Below are positions 23,862 through 33,919 of a stretch of DNA of 64,000 nucleotides, piece by piece. The translations under genes and the position numbers were made by a program. Under the pieces are notes generated by a model. It saw nothing but the letters and a program-made list of their open reading frames with translations. It ran no database searches and was not told where the DNA came from. The first letter of the stretch is position 1; the number at the start of each line of letters is the position of its first letter. The stretch is from Rhizobium sp. NZLR1 (lineage in GTDB: Bacteria; Pseudomonadota; Alphaproteobacteria; Rhizobiales; Rhizobiaceae), in the NCBI RefSeq assembly GCF_017357385.1, contig NZ_CP071637.1, positions 62,001 to 126,000 on the forward strand, written 5' to 3'.

Positions 23862-24635
23862 TCAAAACAGTGTCGGCTGCGCGACAGGTTCCCCAGCTTT
23901 CGTGATGATGGTGGCTCCATAGGGTTCCCGCGAGGTCACGATGATCGCATCGTTTGGCAGCGGCCGGGCAAGCGCCTTAGCTTCGTCCCATGCCGCCCTC
24001 ATCCAGACATCGGTCTCCTCTTTCGTCAGCAGCAGCACCGGCATGGCCTTGTCATGGATTGGCTTGACGATCGCGTTCGGGTCGGTCGTCAGAAAGCCGT
24101 AGAGATCATCCGTCGTCTGCCCGTCCTTGACCTTTCGCACGCTGGTCCATTGAGGAACATGGAGGCCCGCGAAAAACATGAGCGGCTTGCTCTCGTCGCG
24201 CGCAAACCAGGCATTCGGCGTGTTCCCGCCTTCCTGCTTGCTCGCCGGATCAGGCTCGGCAAAACTCGTGACGGGCACGAGGCAGCGGTTCTCGACCCCG
24301 AACCATCTCTTCCAATGCGGGAAATTCAGCTTCCGGACATTCGTCGTCCCACTGTCGAGCTGCTCGCGGACAAGCCTTTCGAAATCCACCTCCTGGCCCT
24401 TGGCGCGAAGTTTTGCAGCTTTCTTCTCGGCCTCCTTTTCGAGGGCGAAGCGTGGCGACGGCAGGCCCCACCGCGCATGGACGAGCTGCTTGCGACCGTC
24501 GGCGGTGTTGCGCACGATCGGTCCTGTCTCGTTCGGGTTCATCTGGTAGGCTGGCATCAGGTTGATCAGGCTGTCGGCGTCCTGCGCCCACTTGGCAACC
24601 CAGTCCTTGTCTTCCATGCGGTACAGATTGCACAT
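23862..24635 (-). CDS. SOS-associated peptidase-fold protein (YedK/HMCES)
   Basis: The true start must be the ATG at 24635, because the family needs Cys as residue 2 ([11 protein letters not shown]). That Cys forms a thiazolidine crosslink with abasic sites in single-stranded DNA. Other signatures: [36 protein letters not shown] and [11 protein letters not shown]. The 257-residue protein protects abasic DNA during replication and is often beside SOS genes. It is divergent from the imuA-imuB-dnaE2 module. Confidence 0.9.
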
Positions 24636-24858
24636 CGAGCTGCGACCGTTTCCGTTGAACACCGCTAGCATCGTAGCTGACAGATTTGCAGAATGCCAAG
24701 CCGTCGATGATCAGACTGTGGCCCCGGCAAAAATTTGTACGGGGCCGGGAAATCGACAAGGCGACCCATAGCCATGATTCGCCACGCGAATCTGCCGGCC
24801 TGCTAAAATTGGGGGATAAAATTCCTATTTCCGGTTGCTTGACTCTTGGAGCAGCGGG

Positions 24859-24935: not shown

Positions 24936-25694
24936 ATGACTGCTGCCCGCGACAGGGTGATCTCCGATCTGCGCGACCGCATCGCCTCGTTTGAAAGGGG
25001 TGCTGCGAGAAAGGCCGGCTGCCTTGCCTTCGGGGTTTCCGAGATTGATGCAGTGCTGCCAGGCGGCGGCCTTGCTTACGGCGCCTTGCATGAGTTTGCG
25101 GGCGGCGGATCGGGAACAGTCGATGGGGCAGCGGCAGCGCTTTTCGTTGCCGGGATCGCGGCCCGGACAAAGGGTCAGATCCTTTGGTGTTTGACGCGTC
25201 CCGACCTGTTTTTCCCGGCGCTCGCGCAGGCAGGTCTTCATCCCGATCGTGTGGTCTTTGCCGAAGCCGACAAGGAAGAGGATGTCCTTGCGACCATGGA
25301 GGAGGGCCTTGGTTATGGCGGCTTGGGCGCCGTCGTCGGCGAGATCGTTCGCCTGCCGATGGTCGCCTCCAGACGGCTGCAGCTTGCGGCGGAAAAGAAG
25401 GGCACGCTGGGTTTGGCTGTCCGCCGATGGCGGCGGCAGACGGAGGCTTCGGATTTCGGGCAACCGACGGCCTCGACGTCCAGGTGGCGGGTGAGTGTGC
25501 TGCCATCGGAGGAGCTGCCAGTTACGGGCGTCGGACGTCCGAGGTGGCTGCTTGAGCTGATGCGGGTGAAAGCGGGTGAGTGCGCAGAGTTTATCGTAGG
25601 AGCGTGCGATGCCACGGGTCGTATCCATTTATCTCCCGGATCTCGCGATCGAGAGGATCAGACGGACGGCTGGCGCCGGCGAATTGTCGGCTGA
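24936..25694 (+). CDS. imuA: ImuA, SOS mutagenesis cassette protein
   Basis: A 252-residue RecA-like ATPase-fold protein with CLAFGVSEIDAVLPGGGLAY and QILWCLTRPDLFFPALAQAG. It works with ImuB and DnaE2 in damage-induced translesion synthesis. AAAGGAGGTTCGTGAACG precedes the start. It overlaps imuB by about 85 bases in another frame, a common arrangement that couples translation. Confidence 0.9.
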   Translation: MTAARDRVISDLRDRIASFERGAARKAGCLAFGVSEIDAVLPGGGLAYGALHEFAGGGSGTVDGAAAALFVAGIAARTKGQILWCLTRPDLFFPALAQAGLHPDRVVFAEADKEEDVLATMEEGLGYGGLGAVVGEIVRLPMVASRRLQLAAEKKGTLGLAVRRWRRQTEASDFGQPTASTSRWRVSVLPSEELPVTGVGRPRWLLELMRVKAGECAEFIVGACDATGRIHLSPGSRDREDQTDGWRRRIVG

Positions 25695-27126
25695 GCGCCC
25701 ACTTGTCGTCGTCGCGAAAAGCGGCTCGAAGCGTTGGATCACGGCTGCGGATCACAAGGCGCGCGAAGCCGGTATTCATGTCAATATGCCGGCCGCCAAG
25801 GCACAAGCGCTCGTCCAGGGCCTGCAGATGGTCGAGGCTGAAGTGAACGCCGACACCGCAGCTCTTGAACGGCTGGCGCTGTGGGCGCTGACGCAATATT
25901 CCCCTGTTGTCGCGGTTGATCCGCCGGACGGCATCGTCATGGACACCGAAGGCGCCGATCACCTGCAGGGTGGCGAAGACCTGATGTTGTCCGGTATCGT
26001 CAACCGTTTCCATGCCCGGGGTCTGACGGCGCGCGTTGCGATTGCCGACAACTGGGGTGCGGCCCATGCGCTCGCTCGGGTGAGCAAGCGCGCGACCGTG
26101 ATCGTTCCGCGTGGCGAGACAGCACGTTTCGTCGAGCGATTGCCGATCGCCTCGCTCAGGCTACCTCCCGAGATCGTTGCCAGCCTGCGGACACTCGGGT
26201 TTCAGACGATCGGCGAGCTGTCGGTTACGCCGCGTGCACCGCTGACCCTTCGCTTCGGCCCAGAGATCGGCCGGCGCCTCGACCAGATCTATGGACGGTT
26301 GCCGGAACCGATCGAGCCAATCCGCTCGATGGACACCATCGAGATCAGCCGCGCCTTTGCCGAGCCGATCGGCGCGCCAGAGACCATCGCCAAATATGTC
26401 TCGCGCCTGGTCGTCCAGCTTTGCGAAGCGCTTCAAAAGAAGGGCCTTGGCGTTCGCCGCACGGATCTGATCGTCCACAAGGTCGACAATACGATGCAGG
26501 CGATCCGCACCGGTACCGCAAAACCCGCCCGCGACGTCGCCTGGCTGACGAAGCTGTTAAAGGATCGGATCGAGAAGATCGAACCGGGTTTCGGTATCGA
26601 GAAACTCTCGCTCGTCGCCGTCATGTCCGAACCGCTCATCGAAACACAGAGGGCGTCTTCGCTGATTGAGGAGGAGGTCGTCGATATCGCCCCGCTGATC
26701 GACGTGATCGGCAATCGCGGCCAGCGCGTCTATCGCGTGGCGCCAGTGGCCAGCGATGTGCCCGAACGCAGCGTCCAGCGTGTCAACGCCGTTGCTGAAG
26801 AAACTGGAACGTCATGGAGCTTGCATTGGCCGCGGCCGGTTCGGCTGCTCGTCCAGCCGGAGCTCGTCGAGGTAATCGCGCTCCTGCCGGATCATCCGCC
26901 GGTCTCGATCACCTGGCGCGGCAAGCGCCGGCGGGTGAAACGCGCCGACGGGCCGGAGCGGATTTTCGGCGAGTGGTGGACGCGGGGCGCGGAATTCGAT
27001 GCGGTAAGGGACTACTTCGTCGTCGAGGATGACAGCGGCGAACGATTCTGGATTTTTCGCTCCGGTGACGGTGTCGATGCCGCGACCGGCTCGCACAAAT
27101 GGTTCCTGCATGGGATCTTCGCATGA
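25609..27126 (+). CDS. imuB: ImuB, inactive Y-family polymerase homologue
   Basis: A 505-residue Y-family protein. The palm region where an active polymerase has catalytic acids reads [16 protein letters not shown] and [13 protein letters not shown], so catalysis is unlikely and ImuB serves as a clamp-binding hub for ImuA and DnaE2. The HhH and little-finger parts follow ([20 protein letters not shown]). The C-terminal tail has WW-rich [12 protein letters not shown] and [11 protein letters not shown]. Stop codon overlaps the dnaE2 start (ATGA). Confidence 0.92.
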
Positions 27127-30100
27127 GCTACGCCGAGCTTCAGGTGACGACGCATTTCTCCTTCCTCCGGGGAGCATCCTCGGCCGACGAGCTGTTTGCC
27201 ACGGCCAAGCTGCTGGGCATCCAGGCGCTTGGCATCGTCGATCGCAACTCGCTGGCCGGCATCGTCCGGGCACTGGAAGCATCGCGCGCCACTGGCCTCC
27301 GGCTGGTTGTCGGCTGTCGGCTCGATTTGGCTGATGGCATGTCGATCCTCGTCTACCCCACCGATCGTGCCGCCTATTCGCGCCTTACTCGATTGCTGAC
27401 GCTTGGCAAGGGCAGGGGCGGCAAGGCCAAATGCATCCTGCATCTCGATGATGTGACGCTCTATGCGGAAGGCCTCATCGGCATTCTCGTTCCCGATCTG
27501 CCGGACGAGACCTGCGCCGTGCAGCTGAGGAAGATGGCCGAGATTTTCGAGGACCGAGCCTATCTCGCTCTATCGCTTCGCCGGCGGCCGAACGACCAGA
27601 TGCGGCTGTACGAACTGTCGAACATGGCCAACCGCTTCAAGGTCAAGACGGTGGTGACCAATGATGTGCTCTTCCATGAGCCTTCGCGGCGGCAGCTGCA
27701 GGATGTCGTCACCTGCATCCGCACCAGGACCACGATCGACGATGTCGGCTTCGAGCGGGAACGCCATGCCGATCGCTACCTGAAGCCGCCGGAGGAAATG
27801 GAGAGGCTGTTTCCCCGCTATCGGCAAGCGTTGGCGCGGACGATGGAAATCGTCAATCGCTGCAGGTTCTCGCTCGAAGAACTGACCTATCAATATCCGG
27901 AAGAGGCGATCGTGCCGGGCAAGGATGCGCAGGCTTCGCTTGAGCATTACGTCTGGGAGTGCGTGCCGCAGCGCTATCCTGAAGGCCTGCCACCAAAGGT
28001 GTTGAAAGTCGTCCGGCATGAACTCGACCTCATCCGCACCATGAAATACGCCCCCTATTTTTTGACGGTGTTTTCGATCGTCCGGTTCGCCCGCTCGCAG
28101 GGTATTCTCTGCCAGGGGCGGGGCTCGGCTGCGAACTCTGCTGTCTGTTATATCCTCGGAATCACATCGATCGATCCCGAGACCAACGATCTTCTGTTCG
28201 AGCGCTTTGTTTCCCAGGAACGCGACGAGCCACCGGATATCGATGTCGACTTCGAACACGAACGGCGCGAAGAGGTGATTCAATGGATCTACAAGACCTA
28301 TACGCATCAGAAGGCGGCGCTCTGTGCGACGGTGACAAAATATCGCGCCAAGGGCGCCATCCGCGATGTTGGCAAGGCGCTCGGGCTGCCGGAGGACATG
28401 ATCAAGGCGCTATCATCGGGCATGTGGTCCTGGTCGGCCGAGATGGCGGACGAAAGGAACCTTCGAGAGCTCAACCTCAATCCGGATGATCGTCGGCTGG
28501 CGCTGACCTTGCAGCTTGCGCAGCAGCTGATGGGGGCGCCTCGCCACCTCGGCCAGCATCCGGGTGGCTTCGTGCTGACCCATGACAGGCTCGATGATCT
28601 CGTGCCGATCGAACCTGCGTCCATGGCCGATCGGCAGGTGATCGAATGGGACAAGGACGACGTCGAGGCGCTGAAATTCATGAAGGTCGATGTCCTGGCG
28701 CTCGGCATGCTCACTTGCATGTCAAAAGCGTTCAGGCTGATCGAAGAGCAGAAGGGCAGACCGATTGATCTTGCCGGCATCGAGCAGGAGGATCCCAAGA
28801 CCTATGCGATGATCCGCAAGGCCGACACGCTGGGTACCTTCCAGATCGAGAGCCGGGCGCAGATGTCGATGCTGCCCCGGATGAAGCCCAAGACTTTTTA
28901 TGACCTGGTGATCCAGGTGGCGATCGTCCGACCTGGTCCGATCCAGGGTGACATGGTGCATCCCTATCTGCGTCGGCGTGAGGGCAAGGAGAAGCCTGAA
29001 TATCCAACACCCGAACTGGAGGCAGTTCTCGGCAAGACACTTGGCGTGCCGCTCTTCCAGGAGAGCGCCATGAAGGTGGCGATGGTCTGCGCCGGCTTTA
29101 CCGGCGGCGAAGCCGATCAGTTGCGCAAGTCGATGGCGACATTCAAGGTCACCGGCGGCGTGTCGCGGTTCCAGGAGAAGCTGGTCTCGGGCATGATCCG
29201 GAACGGCTATTCGCCGGAATTCGCCGAAAAGACATTCAAGCAGCTGGAAGGCTTCGGCTCCTACGGATTTCCGGAAAGCCATGCAGCGAGCTTTGCCCTC
29301 ATCGCCTACGCCTCGAGCTATGTGAAATGCCATTTCCCGGACGTGTTCTGCGCTGCTCTGATCAACAGCCAGCCGATGGGTTTTTACGCTGTCGCCCAGA
29401 TCGTCGGCGATGCCAGGAATCACGGCGTCGAAATCCGCCCGATCTGCATTAATCGGTCACGTTGGGATTGCACGCTGGAACAGATCGAAGGCAGCGATCG
29501 TCACGCCGTCCGGCTCGGCATGCGGCTGGTGCGAGGACTTGCAGCGGTCGATGCCGCCCGAATCATTGCCGCCCGCGCCGATCAGCCCTTCGACAGTGTC
29601 GACGACATGTGGCGGCGCTCCGGCGTACCGGCGGCTTCGCTGGTGGAACTGGCTGAGGGCGATGCCTTCTTGCCGTCACTGGGCCTGCAGCGCCGCGATG
29701 CGTTCTGGGCAATCAAGGCACTGCGTGACGAGCCGCTGCCATTATTTGCCGCGGCATCCGAGCGCGAGAGCAAGTCGATCGCGGAGCAGCGGGAACCGGA
29801 TGTTGCACTGCGGCAGATGACGGATGGGCACAATGTCATCCAGGATTATAGCCACACGGGTCTTACTCTGCGCCAGCATCCGATCGCGTTCCTGCGCAAA
29901 GACCTTACGGCGCGCAGCATCGTCACCTGCGAGGAGGCGATGTCTGCCCGGGACGGTCGCTGGCTGATGACGGCCGGCCTCGTTCTCGTCCGGCAGAAAC
30001 CCGGATCAGCAAAGGGCGTGATGTTTCTGACGATCGAAGACGAGACCGGCCCGGCGAACGTCGTCGTCTGGCCAAAACTGTTCGAGCGACGCCGGCGTGT

Positions 30101-30428
30101 GGTGCTGGGATCGAGCATGATGGCGATCAACGGACGCATCCAACGGGAAGGCGAGGTTGTGCACCTTGTCGCCCAGCAGCTCTTCGATCTCTCCGGCGAC
30201 CTGTCGGCTTTGGCGGATCGTGATGAAGCATTCAAGCTTCCGACCGGTCGCGGCGATGAGTTCGCCCATGGCTCGCCGGGCAGTCCCGATGCCCGGGATC
30301 GGGCTGCCGTGAAGACGCGCGATATCTATGTTCCGTTATGCCGAATTCGGCATAAGGGGACTTATACCGAGCCCGAGACTATGCCGAGCCCATTCCCTAG
30401 ATCCCGATTTCCGGTAATCCAGGATTGA
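27123..30428 (+). CDS. dnaE2: DnaE2 error-prone polymerase, C-terminus replaced
   Basis: The start ATG at 27123 overlaps the imuB stop. The PHP domain ([20 protein letters not shown]) is followed by the PolIIIalpha catalytic part with [16 protein letters not shown] and [14 protein letters not shown], HhH motifs and an OB-fold ([18 protein letters not shown]). Up to TRDIYVP (30335) it is a normal DnaE2. It then runs 31 codons into the inserted element ([14 protein letters not shown]...). The native end DLHIDALKVKSRNFH is found 3.17 kb away at 33502-33549. The polymerase is probably still made with a foreign tail; effects on partner binding are unknown. Confidence 0.9.
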
Positions 30429-30441
30429 AAGCTCGGCATAG
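30362..30441 (+). repeat. left terminal inverted repeat of the dnaE2 insertion
   Basis: Starts TTATACCGAGCCCGAGACTA and ends GCTCGGCATAG. The arm contains its own inverted pair CTATGCCGAGC (30379-30389) and GCTCGGCATAG (30431-30441), suggesting recombinase-binding sites. It aligns with the reverse complement of 33414-33495 over its whole length at roughly 80 percent by eye. Confidence 0.85.
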
Positions 30442-30521
30442 TTTGAATGCGTTGGAAGACCGGGTTCGGCCCAAAGCGGCCGTCGGCCCAATGCCATCGT
30501 GCCAATTGGGCTGACCCCGCA

Positions 30522-30758
30522 TCACTGCTCGCAAACATATAGGCCAAGTGGAAACAACTCTTCGTAACGCGGATGGTCCCTGATGCATTCAAGGCAACCC
30601 TCATGGCGAATGACATCAATCATATCGTCAGCAACACGCTGCATGTAGGCTTCGAGAATGTGCATCGCCGTGTCGAGACCCGAAGCCGTTGCGGCTGTCA
30701 GAATTGAATCTCGATCAGCTCGGGAGGCTCCTTGTTGAAATCGGAATATCGAATCCAC
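30522..30758 (-). pseudogene. possible DJ-1/PfpI C-terminal fragment
   Basis: The frame reads SILTAATASGLDTAMHILEA and then MQRVADDMIDVIRHEGCLE. The first part resembles the TSGxxAGIDLALHLVE helix near the end of DJ-1/PfpI/GlxA proteins. No other domain part is present and it overlaps the PNPOx gene end, so the call is tentative. Confidence 0.3.
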
Positions 30759-31123
30759 CGCGGCGTTGCTTTGAACATCACTGCTCCTCTCTCGATGAAC
30801 TCCCTTTCGGCCGGAACGCTGTTGAGATGGGCTTCCTGGTATTGTTCGATATCTGCGGCACGAACACTTGTTGCCTCACCCTCGTATTGAACCGTGATGT
30901 TGTCGTTCCATCCGACAACGAATGCGACGCCGGGACGCTCCGCGAGATTGTTGAACTTCCGTGTGTCTTTGAAAGTGTCGAACACGATCTCAAGATTGTC
31001 CCGCACCGAGAAGTCGACCGTAGCCGCCTCCGGCGTTCCGTTGCGGTGGCATGTCGCAATGACCGCCAAGGTGTGCTTCCTCAGGAATTCAAGGATCATG
31101 CGTTTCGTATGATCTTCGTCCAT
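30698..31123 (-). CDS. pyridoxamine 5'-phosphate oxidase-fold protein
   Basis: From MDEDHTKRMILEFLRKHTLA the 141-residue product has the split-barrel flavin-binding fold: VIATCHRNGTPEAATVDFSV, FDTFKDTRKFNNLAERPGVA and VQYEGEATSV. Such small PNPOx-like proteins bind FMN, F420 or haem and reduce diverse substrates; the true substrate cannot be told. Start at 31123 follows a GAGGGATGAGG-type site. It is cargo within the dnaE2 insertion. Confidence 0.75.
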   Translation of the reverse strand: MDEDHTKRMILEFLRKHTLAVIATCHRNGTPEAATVDFSVRDNLEIVFDTFKDTRKFNNLAERPGVAFVVGWNDNITVQYEGEATSVRAADIEQYQEAHLNSVPAEREFIERGAVMFKATPRWIRYSDFNKEPPELIEIQF

Positions 31124-31313
31124 TGCCTCATCCCTCAGTGAGTTTTCTCGACTTTTGTGCAGTCCCATTCGACAGCCCGCCGGCCTCGGCGGCGTTTGGC
31201 CGCCAGCGCCGCGAGCTTGCGAGATATGCGTTCACCACCCGACCCAGCCATCGATGCGTCCGTTCTAATCTCGTGCCTTCCAGGACGATTAACACATTGC
31301 TCACCCTCGTTCG

Positions 31314-32099
31314 ATGGTCATCGGCCAGCAGGGTCCTGCGCCGAACATCATGAAGACGGTCAAGGTTCTAAAAGAACGCAAGATCGCCGACAGGACCGCT
31401 CTTGGCGCTTTCCTGCCTAATGAAAGCTCCTCGATGATTGGTGGGCTCGTTTTCGAAGCCTCTTTCCTGCTACAAATTCAGCGGGTCCTTGCCATCCCTG
31501 GGAAGATCGGGTCGAACCGAGAGGTGCAATTCCTCACCCGCAACGAGATCAAAGCGATCCTCGCGGCTCCTGATCTGCGAACTTGGGTTGGGCGGCGGGA
31601 CTATGTCCTGATGCTGACGGCTGTACCGACAAGATGCGCCTTTCCGTACTCGTCGGGCTTGATCGAAGCGCCGTCACTATTGGAATGGGCGCACACATTC
31701 GGGAAAGGTCGCAAGGAGCGGACCACGCCGATCACCAAGATGCTCAATGCAAAACTCAAAGCGTGGTTGGACGAACCGCCCATGCGGAACTCGAATGCTC
31801 TTTTTCCGACCATTCACGGTGAGCGGATGAGCCCCGATGCGGTGCAGTACCTTCTGGCAAAATACGTCTTGGCGGCGTCCAAGGGCTGTCCGTCTTTACG
31901 ATCAAAGCGGATATCACTTCATGTCCTTCGCCACAGCGCCGCAATGGAACTGCTGGATGCAGGCGTGGACAGCACGGTGATCTCGTTGTGGCTCGGCCAA
32001 AGGAGGCCGCTCTTGCCAAGATCGATCCGTACAATGATCTCTCGCATGGGCGCTTCCGGGCTGGCGACGAACTCTTGGCTTTCCTCGATAAACTCTGAT
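31314..32099 (+). pseudogene. tyrosine recombinase (integrase), decayed
   Basis: Segments of a C-terminal recombinase domain are spread over two frames: EVQFLTRNEIKAILAAPDLR, then (other frame) MRLSVLVGLDRSAVTIGMGA, back to FGKGRKERTTPITKMLNAKL, SPDAVQYLLAKYVLAASKG and the catalytic HVLRHSAAMELLDAGVD. The region with the catalytic Tyr is deleted between LWLGQ and KEAALAKIDPYNDLSHGRF. At least two frameshifts plus this deletion make the protein inactive. N-terminal core-binding domain also missing. Confidence 0.8.
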
Positions 32100-32249
32100 C
32101 CTTAGGAATCATCGATCGCTAAAGCCGCGATATCATTCTGTCCGGAGACCCGTTTCCGGGGTGGATCGCCGAAGGTCGTGGCTGATCTTCAGGAACGCCA
32201 CGACGCCGACGCCCATTGACGCGGCGAATGAACAGGGAATCTCTATCGG

Positions 32250-33056
32250 CTAGCTGTGCCGCCATACGTTAATTGCGGATATCAGCAAAATCACCGCTAG
32301 CGCTGGCAGAAGTACGGAATTCGGGACAAGGCCAAGAAGCAGCCCGCCGACAAAGGTCCCGATTATCGAGCCTGCTGCCATAATCAGCAGGAACGCTTTG
32401 TTACCGCCAAGGACCGAGAAGCTCTGATCGCGGCTGTACCGTGTGAAGCCGACAAGCATGGTGGGCAGACTGACTGCAAGAGAGAGGCTGCCAGCCAGTT
32501 TGATATCCGCACCGAACAACAACACCAGCGTCGGGATCAGCAGCTCGCCGCCTGCCACGCCAAGCAAGGCTGCGACAATACCGATGATGAAGCCCGCGAT
32601 CACGCCACCAATAAGCTGAGCTACTCCAGTCACCAACGGCTGCCCGGCGGTCGCATCATGACCGAGAACCAGCACCACAGCGATGATGATCAGCATGGCT
32701 GCTATGACTTTGTAGAGCGTCTCCGACCTCAAACGTGTCGCCCATCCTGCGCCGAACCAGGCTCCGATCAGGCTTCCGGCAAGGAGGTTGGCGATAATCG
32801 CCCAGTGATCTGCAATTGTTCCAAAGGAGATAGTTCCAGCACGGAACGGCAGCGCTGTCGCCACGACGACGAGGCTCATGGCCTTGTTCAGGATGACGGC
32901 TTCCAGCGCCGCAAAGTTGAACAGGCTGATGAGGATCGGGAGACGGAATTCCGCGCCCCCCAGCCCAATCAGACCTCCAAGAGTGCCTATGATTGCCCCC
33001 GCGACAAAGGCTGCGGGCTGATTTCGAGTAGTCGATGGATTGGCGGCGTCACTCAT
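32250..33056 (-). CDS. TauE/SafE-family membrane transporter
   Basis: A 268-residue protein with eight or so hydrophobic segments. The paired Gly-rich motifs characteristic of the family are FVAGAIIGTLGGLIGLGGAE and FIIGIVAALLGVAGGELLIP, arising from an internal duplication. Members export sulfite, sulfoacetate or related organosulfur anions, but the substrate here is unknown. I prefer the ATG at 33056 over the upstream one at 33140. It is the largest intact cargo gene of the dnaE2 insertion. Confidence 0.85.
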   Translation of the reverse strand: MSDAANPSTTRNQPAAFVAGAIIGTLGGLIGLGGAEFRLPILISLFNFAALEAVILNKAMSLVVVATALPFRAGTISFGTIADHWAIIANLLAGSLIGAWFGAGWATRLRSETLYKVIAAMLIIIAVVLVLGHDATAGQPLVTGVAQLIGGVIAGFIIGIVAALLGVAGGELLIPTLVLLFGADIKLAGSLSLAVSLPTMLVGFTRYSRDQSFSVLGGNKAFLLIMAAGSIIGTFVGGLLLGLVPNSVLLPALAVILLISAINVWRHS

Positions 33057-33105
33057 GACCGGTATGTATGCACAATAAATACGGGCTGGATAGAAGACGA
33101 ACCTG

Positions 33106-33372
33106 ATGAGTGTAACAAATTGCAGATGGTGTGTTGCCAACGGAGAAATGCTTTCGGAAGCAAAGCGCTACCGCGCGGAATTCAAGTCTGATGGTTTCAC
33201 CATTGGCTGGAATGTCGGCTCAGCCGGTGGCCAGCATGTTTTTCATGCCCATCTGCACGTTATCTGCAGATATGAGGGCGAGCCGAACGCCGGGCGTGGA
33301 TTGCGAAACCTTGCCCGCCAATTGCGAACGTTTTCAAAGCCAATTTCGACGACTCAATCTCTCGCCGATTGA
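33106..33372 (+). pseudogene. HIT-family protein, short or truncated
   Basis: The distal half carries IGWNVGSAGGQHVFHAHLHV, which includes the histidine triad (HAHLH), followed by GRGLRNLARQL. The N-terminal half expected of HIT nucleotide hydrolases is replaced by about 30 unrelated residues. It starts 49 bases from the divergent TauE gene. Probably a remnant. Confidence 0.5.
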
Positions 33373-33413
33373 TCGTAGGGCGGAGCGAAGTAGACAGCAG
33401 ATCGAATGCGGAT

Positions 33414-33495
33414 TTATGCCGAGCTTATAATCCCGGATTAGCGGAAATCTCGGGCTTTAGGGAAGTCGCTCGGCATAGTATCGGGCTCGGGATAA
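33414..33495 (-). repeat. right terminal inverted repeat of the dnaE2 insertion
   Basis: Reverse complement begins TTATCCCGAGCCCGATACTA and contains TATGCCGAGC and GCTCGGCATAA like the left copy. The outer 20-bp palindrome of the left end is absent here, so this end may have lost about 25 bases. Confidence 0.85.
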
Positions 33496-33501
33496 ATTTC
33501 T

Positions 33502-33549
33502 GACCTTCACATTGACGCCCTCAAGGTAAAGAGCAGGAATTTTCATTGA
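33502..33549 (+). pseudogene. dnaE2: detached 3' end of dnaE2
   Basis: Translates DLHIDALKVKSRNFH then TGA. DnaE2 proteins end with a RDIYVPDLHIDTLKVKSRNF-type sequence, and the main gene breaks off exactly after RDIYVP. This 16-codon piece is the missing terminus, displaced by the element at 30336-33501. Confidence 0.92.
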
Positions 33550-33578
33550 GCTTCAGCCAGAATGCGGTCGCCCCAGGA

Positions 33579-33782
33579 TCAGAGCACGGATACCTTCTCG
33601 GCCTTGGACTTTCCGGTCTTGCGGTCCTGACCGACTTCAAAGCTGACCTTGTCACCCTCCTTCAGCGAACCGCCACGCTGCAAAGCAGACACGTGAACGA
33701 ACATGTCCGTTCCGCCATTGTCAGGCGTGATGAAGCCGAATCCCTTGTCGTCGTTGAAAAATTTGACTGTACCGGTAGGCAT
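33579..33782 (-). CDS. cold-shock protein (CspA family)
   Basis: A 67-residue single OB-fold: [20 protein letters not shown] with RNP1 (KGFGFI), then [10 protein letters not shown] with RNP2 (VFVH-like MFVHV). Binds single-stranded RNA/DNA as an RNA chaperone. Start at 33782 follows TAAGAGGAAGTTTC. The long leader (33783-33900) is typical of csp genes and may itself be temperature-sensitive. Confidence 0.9.
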
Positions 33783-33919
33783 GAAACTTCCTCTTAGCTT
33801 CCATTCCAAGACTCGCGTGCGGAACCTATATCGCCAACCGCTTTCGATCAACACGCGAGCGATTCCCTATCATTGAGCTACGAAAACTCGGTTAGACTTC
33901 ATCCATATTACAGGGCCGC

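Follow-up and report, generated by a model that had tools for sequence, protein, structure and literature searches.

Recombinase-in-trio (RIT) elements have been known for more than ten years from genome sequences. In published RITs the interrupted gene is radC (two species) or codes for an IS66 transposase (PMC2864759), and according to PMC3414803 their repeats and the overlapping palindrome did not fit known binding sites. A 2023 paper lists the target specificity, empty sites and movement of RITs as not (formally) tested (PMC10214605, Table 1), while a 6-bp exchange region is known in Tn554, the strand-biased circularizing elements (SEs) and the GInts (PMC10214605, PMC5385486). In this work we have analysed a stretch of 64,000 nucleotides from Rhizobium sp. 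NZLR1 (contig NZ_CP071637.1, positions 62,001 to 126,000 of the forward strand), which we call the window and whose first letter is position 1. In this window the error-prone DNA polymerase gene dnaE2 (imuC) is interrupted close to its end, and this interruption is one case of an event that recurs at this site and is due to a RIT-related element. The explanation which fits best overall, and which from the compared sequences is very probably right, is that this RIT-related element targets the dnaE2 site and that the copy in the window has since lost its recombinases except for a remnant of RitC.

Results

The inserted segment measures 3,166 bp (30336-33501) and separates dnaE2 from its last 15 codons. 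It begins with a perfect 20-bp palindrome and closes with the right-hand 6-bp core, so that the limits proposed in a first-pass annotation, made from the letters of the stretch alone, proved exact to the base. The same annotation had the dnaE2 frame running normally to RDIYVP (30335) and the native terminus displaced to 33502-33549 on the same strand, and we could verify both. It also described inverted repeats of about 80 bp as the boundaries of the insertion. Such repeats do exist, with lengths of 79 and 81 bp and 84% identity to each other, but on the left they stop short of the edge, where the palindrome and a core lie outside the repeat. The parts of the junctions are as follows.

27123..30335, plus strand: dnaE2/imuC up to the insertion, last residues RDIYVP (alternative start at 27099; the altered frame leads to a stop at 30428)
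30330..30335, plus strand: core 1, GTTCCG (Val-Pro codons), on the dnaE2 side
30336..30355, no strand: perfect 20-bp palindrome TTATGCCGAATTCGGCATAA
30336..30430, plus strand: foreign DnaE2 tail, 30 residues and stop, coded by palindrome, core and repeat
30356..30361, plus strand: core 2, GGGGAC (reverse complement GTCCCC), inverted relative to cores 1 and 3
30362..30440, plus strand: left inverted repeat, 79 bp
33415..33495, minus strand: right inverted repeat, 81 bp
33496..33501, plus strand: core 3, ATTTCT (Ile-Ser codons)
33502..33549, plus strand (that of dnaE2): displaced native dnaE2 end DLHIDALKVKSRNFH and stop

The order along the DNA is dnaE2, 6-bp core (mostly Val/Ile-Pro codons in the occupied loci), 20-bp palindrome, inverted core, repeat of about 81 bp, element, repeat, core and dnaE2 tail, an arrangement which the occupied dnaE2 loci have in common. 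Is the sequence at 33502-33549 really the end of dnaE2? Intact relatives agree with the first-pass annotation on this point, since they do end RD[IM][FY][VI]P-DLHID.LKVK.RNF[HQ]. The annotation had conceded that a second full dnaE2 showing this end to be unrelated would speak against it; a second full-length dnaE2 of the same genome, a 50%-identical paralogue, also ends in RNFH. Among the 80 nearest dnaE2 loci of the species collection the native end is in place at 76, and the remaining four (L034, L058, L065 and L083; L-numbers denote the loci compared) are cut at the identical codon by the same palindrome, TTATGCCGA[AG][TC]TCGGCATAA. An automatic classifier called 35 of these loci intact and 4 occupied and left 41 undecided; inspection by eye showed native tails in the 41, and on recounting the 76 intact loci comprise 75 recognized by a sequence pattern plus L042, whose tail DLHVDTLKVKARNFH lies outside that pattern. 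The chromosome of the window's genome additionally holds a decayed C-terminal remnant of dnaE2 (G000:C1:3409153-3409361; L140, L142) with an uninterrupted VPDRHIDALKVKA junction.

A search allowing at most one mismatch found the palindrome at 24 places of the genus, spread over 20 of the 148 genomes, and in 4 of the 199 genomes of an evenly drawn family sample; in the window's own genome TTATGCCGAATTCGGCATAA occurs once. All of these places were retrieved, in 25 regions which, together with the window, make 26 palindrome sites. In 17 of them tblastn places DnaE2 directly beside the palindrome, in each case ending on its 5' side. In one region (L125:6822-10328) the palindrome is the meeting point of two oppositely oriented dnaE2 pieces, which looks like a rearrangement.

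Once six duplicating loci had been dropped, 38 loci were left (the near-duplicates L132 and L151 both stayed in the set), and 36 of these yielded 50 repeat ends: 23 lie at the palindrome, 21 at the dnaE2 tail and 4 at element B, which is annotated as an IS91-family transposase plus a tyrosine recombinase. The last two are one end resembling a frame-shifted tail (L122) and one undefined end. Random positions in the same loci satisfied our definition of a dnaE2 tail in 36 of 200,000 draws, compared with 21 of the 50 repeat ends, and none of the 50 joined a dnaE2 tail to the palindrome. Twelve of the loci came from plasmids, sampled from 109 plasmid records with the repeat; L149-L151 were chosen for their polymerase annotation and the other nine irrespective of dnaE2, and in these nine each of the 10 repeat ends adjoins a dnaE2 tail, the palindrome or a variant palindrome. 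In 394 family genomes a repeat-end pattern was found at 15 places in 11 genomes of 8 genera, 12 of them clearly at dnaE2. Very short elements, with about 0.4-1 kb between the repeat ends, were also seen at the same dnaE2 codon (L149:5643-6081, L150:5305-6081 and L127:10010-11001); their length is insufficient for a recombinase trio.

Occupation of this one codon in many root-nodule and related soil bacteria suggests that the gene serves as a dedicated landing site of RIT-related elements. Could it instead be that plasmid copies of dnaE2 are dispensable in rhizobia, that any element may land in them and that the last codons are merely permissive? Many occupied genes are indeed broken or truncated, and DnaE2 is uninterrupted over more than 1050 residues in only 8 of the 26 palindrome sites. 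However, every insertion of this family seen in dnaE2 lies at one codon boundary and not scattered over the 3.2-kb gene. Because the position is fixed, general tolerance is already disfavoured, and we find it hardly credible.

The relation to RITs is clearest in Rhizobium johnstonii 3841. On its plasmids pRL10 and pRL11 dnaE2 is cut at the same codon and its tail lies at the far end of a recombinase trio. The trio of pRL11 is intact and encodes tyrosine recombinases of 410, 306 and 331 residues in the same orientation, with ATGA at both overlaps. A RIT is defined by three adjacent tyrosine-recombinase genes of like orientation with overlaps of 4-8 bp and by inverted repeats at its termini, one of which has a palindrome; these repeats are present as well and exceed the published length. 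One long and one ordinary recombinase with a small helper, the set of Tn554 and the SEs, is not what pRL11 carries. Typical of the RIT families are two CB domains in RitA and an additional helix at the C-terminus of RitC; all three trio proteins here match XerC/XerD-type NCBIfam models, below the cut-off. In pRL10 the RitA gene is split by a frameshift, and pRlX2 (strain TP60) has the dnaE2 tail side, with no 5' part of dnaE2 in the retrieved stretch. Of 584 plasmid records with RitC relatives, 9 are from Cupriavidus. The Ti plasmid pTi-SAKURA (L148:6081) likewise has a RitC gene, and a repeat end there runs into a short dnaE2 tail (APDLHIDTLKIK).

What the sequences show is the insertion with edges known to the base, many relatives with the same edges, some relatives with complete trios, and trios in both orientations. 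In the 14 sites with recombinase sequence the trio points toward dnaE2 in 7 and away from it in 7, and for two of these sites (L113, L149) the direction comes from weak matches (about 40% identity). With few exceptions, core 1 of the dnaE2 sites consists of Val/Ile/Thr/Asp-Pro codons. Core 2, between palindrome and repeat, has such codons on the opposite strand, and core 3 precedes the dnaE2 tail; in the window core 3 has drifted to Ile-Ser codons. We infer that RITs are gene-targeted and use a dyad-symmetric attachment site with two cores. The circular form of the element would have the junction repeat, core, palindrome, inverted core, repeat, which is a dyad. Whichever core of the circle crosses over with the target core, the palindrome would end up 5' of the target, and only the direction of the trio would depend on the core used. 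An exchange between cores 1 and 3, which are direct, would remove the whole insertion and close the dnaE2 frame, and recombination between the inverted cores 2 and 3 would flip the direction of the trio. A dyad junction in which either core is usable would account for the fixed side of the palindrome, for the 7:7 distribution of trio directions and for the inverted core 2.

Element B lies between palindrome and trio in pRL10 and pRL11, in opposite orientations, and it stands directly against the same palindrome, again in both orientations, in four loci (L118:10327-12405, L119:10106-12184, L117:7691-9769 and L121:10298-12377); the dnaE2 site therefore collects unrelated elements. It may be that the palindrome and its core entered dnaE2 first, as a minimal non-autonomous unit, and that RITs and other elements later piled in beside it, in which case their position would reflect affinity for the palindrome and not for dnaE2. 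Element B abutting the palindrome in L117-L119 and L121 favours such a sequence of two steps, as the palindrome then attracts or tolerates other insertions. On the other hand, a palindrome lacking an adjoining repeat, recombinase or element B was not clearly seen in the 26 sites (L134 is ambiguous), and RITs in other genes bring their own palindrome at the same 6-bp distance, which indicates that it belongs to the element. We therefore regard entry in two steps as unlikely.

Several observations weigh against direct targeting of dnaE2 by the RIT-related element. Nine of the 26 palindrome sites (L112, L114, L117, L120, L121, L122, L126, L130 and L131) have no DnaE2 detected by tblastn. By eye, most of them retain merely about 6-8 codons like the dnaE2 end, RD[IM][FY][VI]P-like, before the palindrome; L114 has a somewhat longer decayed stretch and L122 is apparently frame-shifted. 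In L117, L120 and L126 the dnaE2 tail is present at the far repeat. Among the 15 places in the family genomes, L163 is ambiguous, L169 (3 mismatches) is no dnaE2 site, and L166 is a probable dnaE2 site in which the repeat joins the dnaE2-like end directly, with no separate palindrome. Some loci are not independent, L132 and L151 differing by one dnaE2 codon. Cores 1 and 3 are identical in only 3 (L123, L124 and L126) of the 13 sites in which both are readable, and the core width of 6 bp was taken from alignments, so that 5-7 bp are possible. Core 1 may or may not be the old target core, as it agrees with that of the closest intact dnaE2 in no more than 2 of 18 sites, and either parent may have supplied a given core. 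Lastly, the case is entirely comparative, with no transposition, circle or empty site observed.

Six further RIT loci were compared, whose RitC identities range between 38% and 64%, and none of the six is located at dnaE2. In five of them the repeats measure 28-46 bp, and beyond just one of the two repeats, separated from it by 6 bp that hold an inverted core, stands a 20-bp palindrome; in the sixth, L177, no inverted repeat was found and it was excluded from the five. Their direct cores agree at 6 (L178), 6 (L179), 5 (L176), 4 (L180) and 2 (L175) of 6 positions. Two RITs, from Bradyrhizobium and Rhizobium, split an IS66 transposase gene at the same place, between the Pfam domains DDE_Tnp_IS66 and DDE_Tnp_IS66_C, and a Phaeobacter RIT splits a zincin metallopeptidase domain (MPTase-PolyVal). 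A Sphingobium RIT splits a strawberry-notch gene; this target call, in L180, is based on AAA_34 on the left flank and the strawberry-notch annotation on both sides, the right flank having no Pfam family match. No Pfam family match was obtained for the flank of L179, and the target of the Sinorhizobium meliloti RIT could not be named. The published radC and IS66 targets fit targets that are specific to RIT subfamilies.

Inside the window the element itself has been reduced to a remnant and cargo. Its recombinase character, claimed from the first reading, rests on the RitC-type remnant listed here together with the cargo and the gene 5' of dnaE2.

25609..27126, plus strand: putative imuB (Y-family polymerase-like partner), 5' of dnaE2, open reading frame of 505 residues
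30698..31168, minus strand: cargo, pyridoxamine 5'-phosphate oxidase-like (PNPOx) protein (Pfam PF01243, 62.9 bits)
31314..32105, plus strand: tyrosine recombinase remnant, RitC type (Pfam PF00589; 76.6% identity over 184 residues to pRL11 RitC)
32250..33140, minus strand: cargo, TauE/SafE-type membrane exporter (Pfam PF01925, 103.6 bits)
33106..33372, plus strand: cargo, fragment of a HIT-family protein (C-terminal part, matching positions 59-97 of the 98 in Pfam PF01230)

About 98 N-terminal residues of the RitC remnant are unrecognisable, and its C-terminal part lies in another frame, as a second, out-of-frame match to pRL11 RitC. RitA and RitB were not detected in 30300-33560, and since the RitC remnant alone is left of the trio, we class the copy as RIT-derived, short of a complete RIT. 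A search of the window's genome gave no further copy of the element but only partial matches of the TauE and PNPOx genes (contig C1), and the sole close match to RitC there is the remnant itself. With its recombinases lost except this remnant, and with unrelated cargo, the copy cannot move unaided; its mobilisation in trans may be possible.

What does the insertion mean for the polymerase? The first-pass annotation gave the foreign tail 31 residues, which a recount corrects to 30. As that annotation suggested, the polymerase may remain active: the altered frame is open and the NCBIfam model PRK05672 (error-prone DNA polymerase) is covered almost fully, at positions 4-1043 of 1047, with 1372.6 bits (cut-off 939), but the displaced end is strongly conserved. 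Most likely, but this is a guess, DnaE2 is still produced with the 30-residue substitute tail and is either impaired or neutral. Perhaps the element even provides a working C-terminus, as some 3'-end integrators rebuild the gene they enter. The occupied sites that we inspected keep an open frame for some 30 residues, and the dN/dS between the window's dnaE2 and the nearest intact relative, 0.051, falls inside the range of intact pairs (0.050-0.080, 12 closest), although that relative is distant (dS ~1.1) and the ratio thus says little on the period since insertion. Against a useful tail, the substitute has no resemblance to the native one, other occupied copies are decayed, an occupied copy (L128) shows a dN/dS of 0.181, and the ratio mostly reflects the time before insertion. 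We consider a useful tail improbable. An attempt to read selection after insertion from dN/dS was given up, as the ratio cannot separate the time before from the time after; the only pair from two records that shares an insertion, L132 and L151, differs by a single codon, and the other three pairs compared are identical, probably one genome recorded twice. In 18 of the 26 palindrome sites no uninterrupted full-length dnaE2 adjoins, which fits loss of function in many lineages. The altered-tail polymerases in L149-L151 carry the ordinary annotation of an error-prone polymerase.

The surroundings of the gene are those of a mutagenesis cassette. We take 25609..27126 to be imuB from its position, and the order imuA-imuB-dnaE2 is annotated in L149-L151. 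An open reading frame 5' of the cassette (23862-24671, minus strand) resembles, by eye from its translation, an SOS-response-associated peptidase, and a cold-shock protein gene (33579-33854, minus strand; Pfam CSD) follows just 3' of the displaced dnaE2 end.

Discussion

Unoccupied and occupied dnaE2 sites together supply exact ends, a core and a target, and with these integration assays are straightforward to design. The target is notable in itself, being the conserved end of an SOS error-prone polymerase which is often plasmid-borne. Our literature search found no paper that joins dnaE2 with a tyrosine recombinase and an integration site, or with an integrase, a genomic island and an insertion site; parts of the RIT end structure may already be in print (Ricker et al. 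2013; Van Houdt et al. 2009). Could all of this be drawn together? RITs might form a gene-targeted class whose dyad site with two cores (repeat, core, 20-bp palindrome, inverted core, repeat) gives the reason for three recombinases, each subfamily might use one conserved codon motif of one gene, and entry and exit of the dnaE2 subfamily, whose seat is the polymerase of the SOS mutasome, might change or switch the induced mutagenesis of plasmid-borne imuABC cassettes. Taken as a whole, this wider proposal is tentative and rather doubtful.

Among described systems RITs are the closest. The pRL11 relative shares with them three tyrosine recombinases in a row with ATGA overlaps, and the elements at dnaE2 share terminal inverted repeats, a palindrome near one end and insertion within other genes (PMC3414803, PMC2864759). 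In contrast to these, the window copy consists of a RitC remnant and cargo only, and its repeats of about 81 bp compare with 28-29 bp (PMC3414803) or 34 bp (PMC10214605). The target here is dnaE2 with a defined 6-bp core, whereas the available texts describe targets and ends of published RITs as unresolved or not tested. Tn554 and the SEs likewise have tyrosine recombinases, target specificity and a 6-bp footprint that differs between the ends, but they use one ordinary and one large recombinase (RHRY motif) with helper proteins in place of three recombinases of 306-410 residues, and the accessible part of PMC10214605 mentions no 20-bp palindrome for them. GInts resemble our elements in their three recombinases and fixed target gene, in the imperfect direct repeats that flank them and in 6-nt staggered cuts (PMC5385486); a ginD-type fourth gene, placed after the three integrases, characterises a GInt. 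Finally, the interrupted gene is part of an imuABC cassette, of the kind which, when plasmid-borne, raises mutation following plasmid transfer (PMC4151985); the cassette described there is intact, whereas here the end of the polymerase has been displaced by a mobile element.

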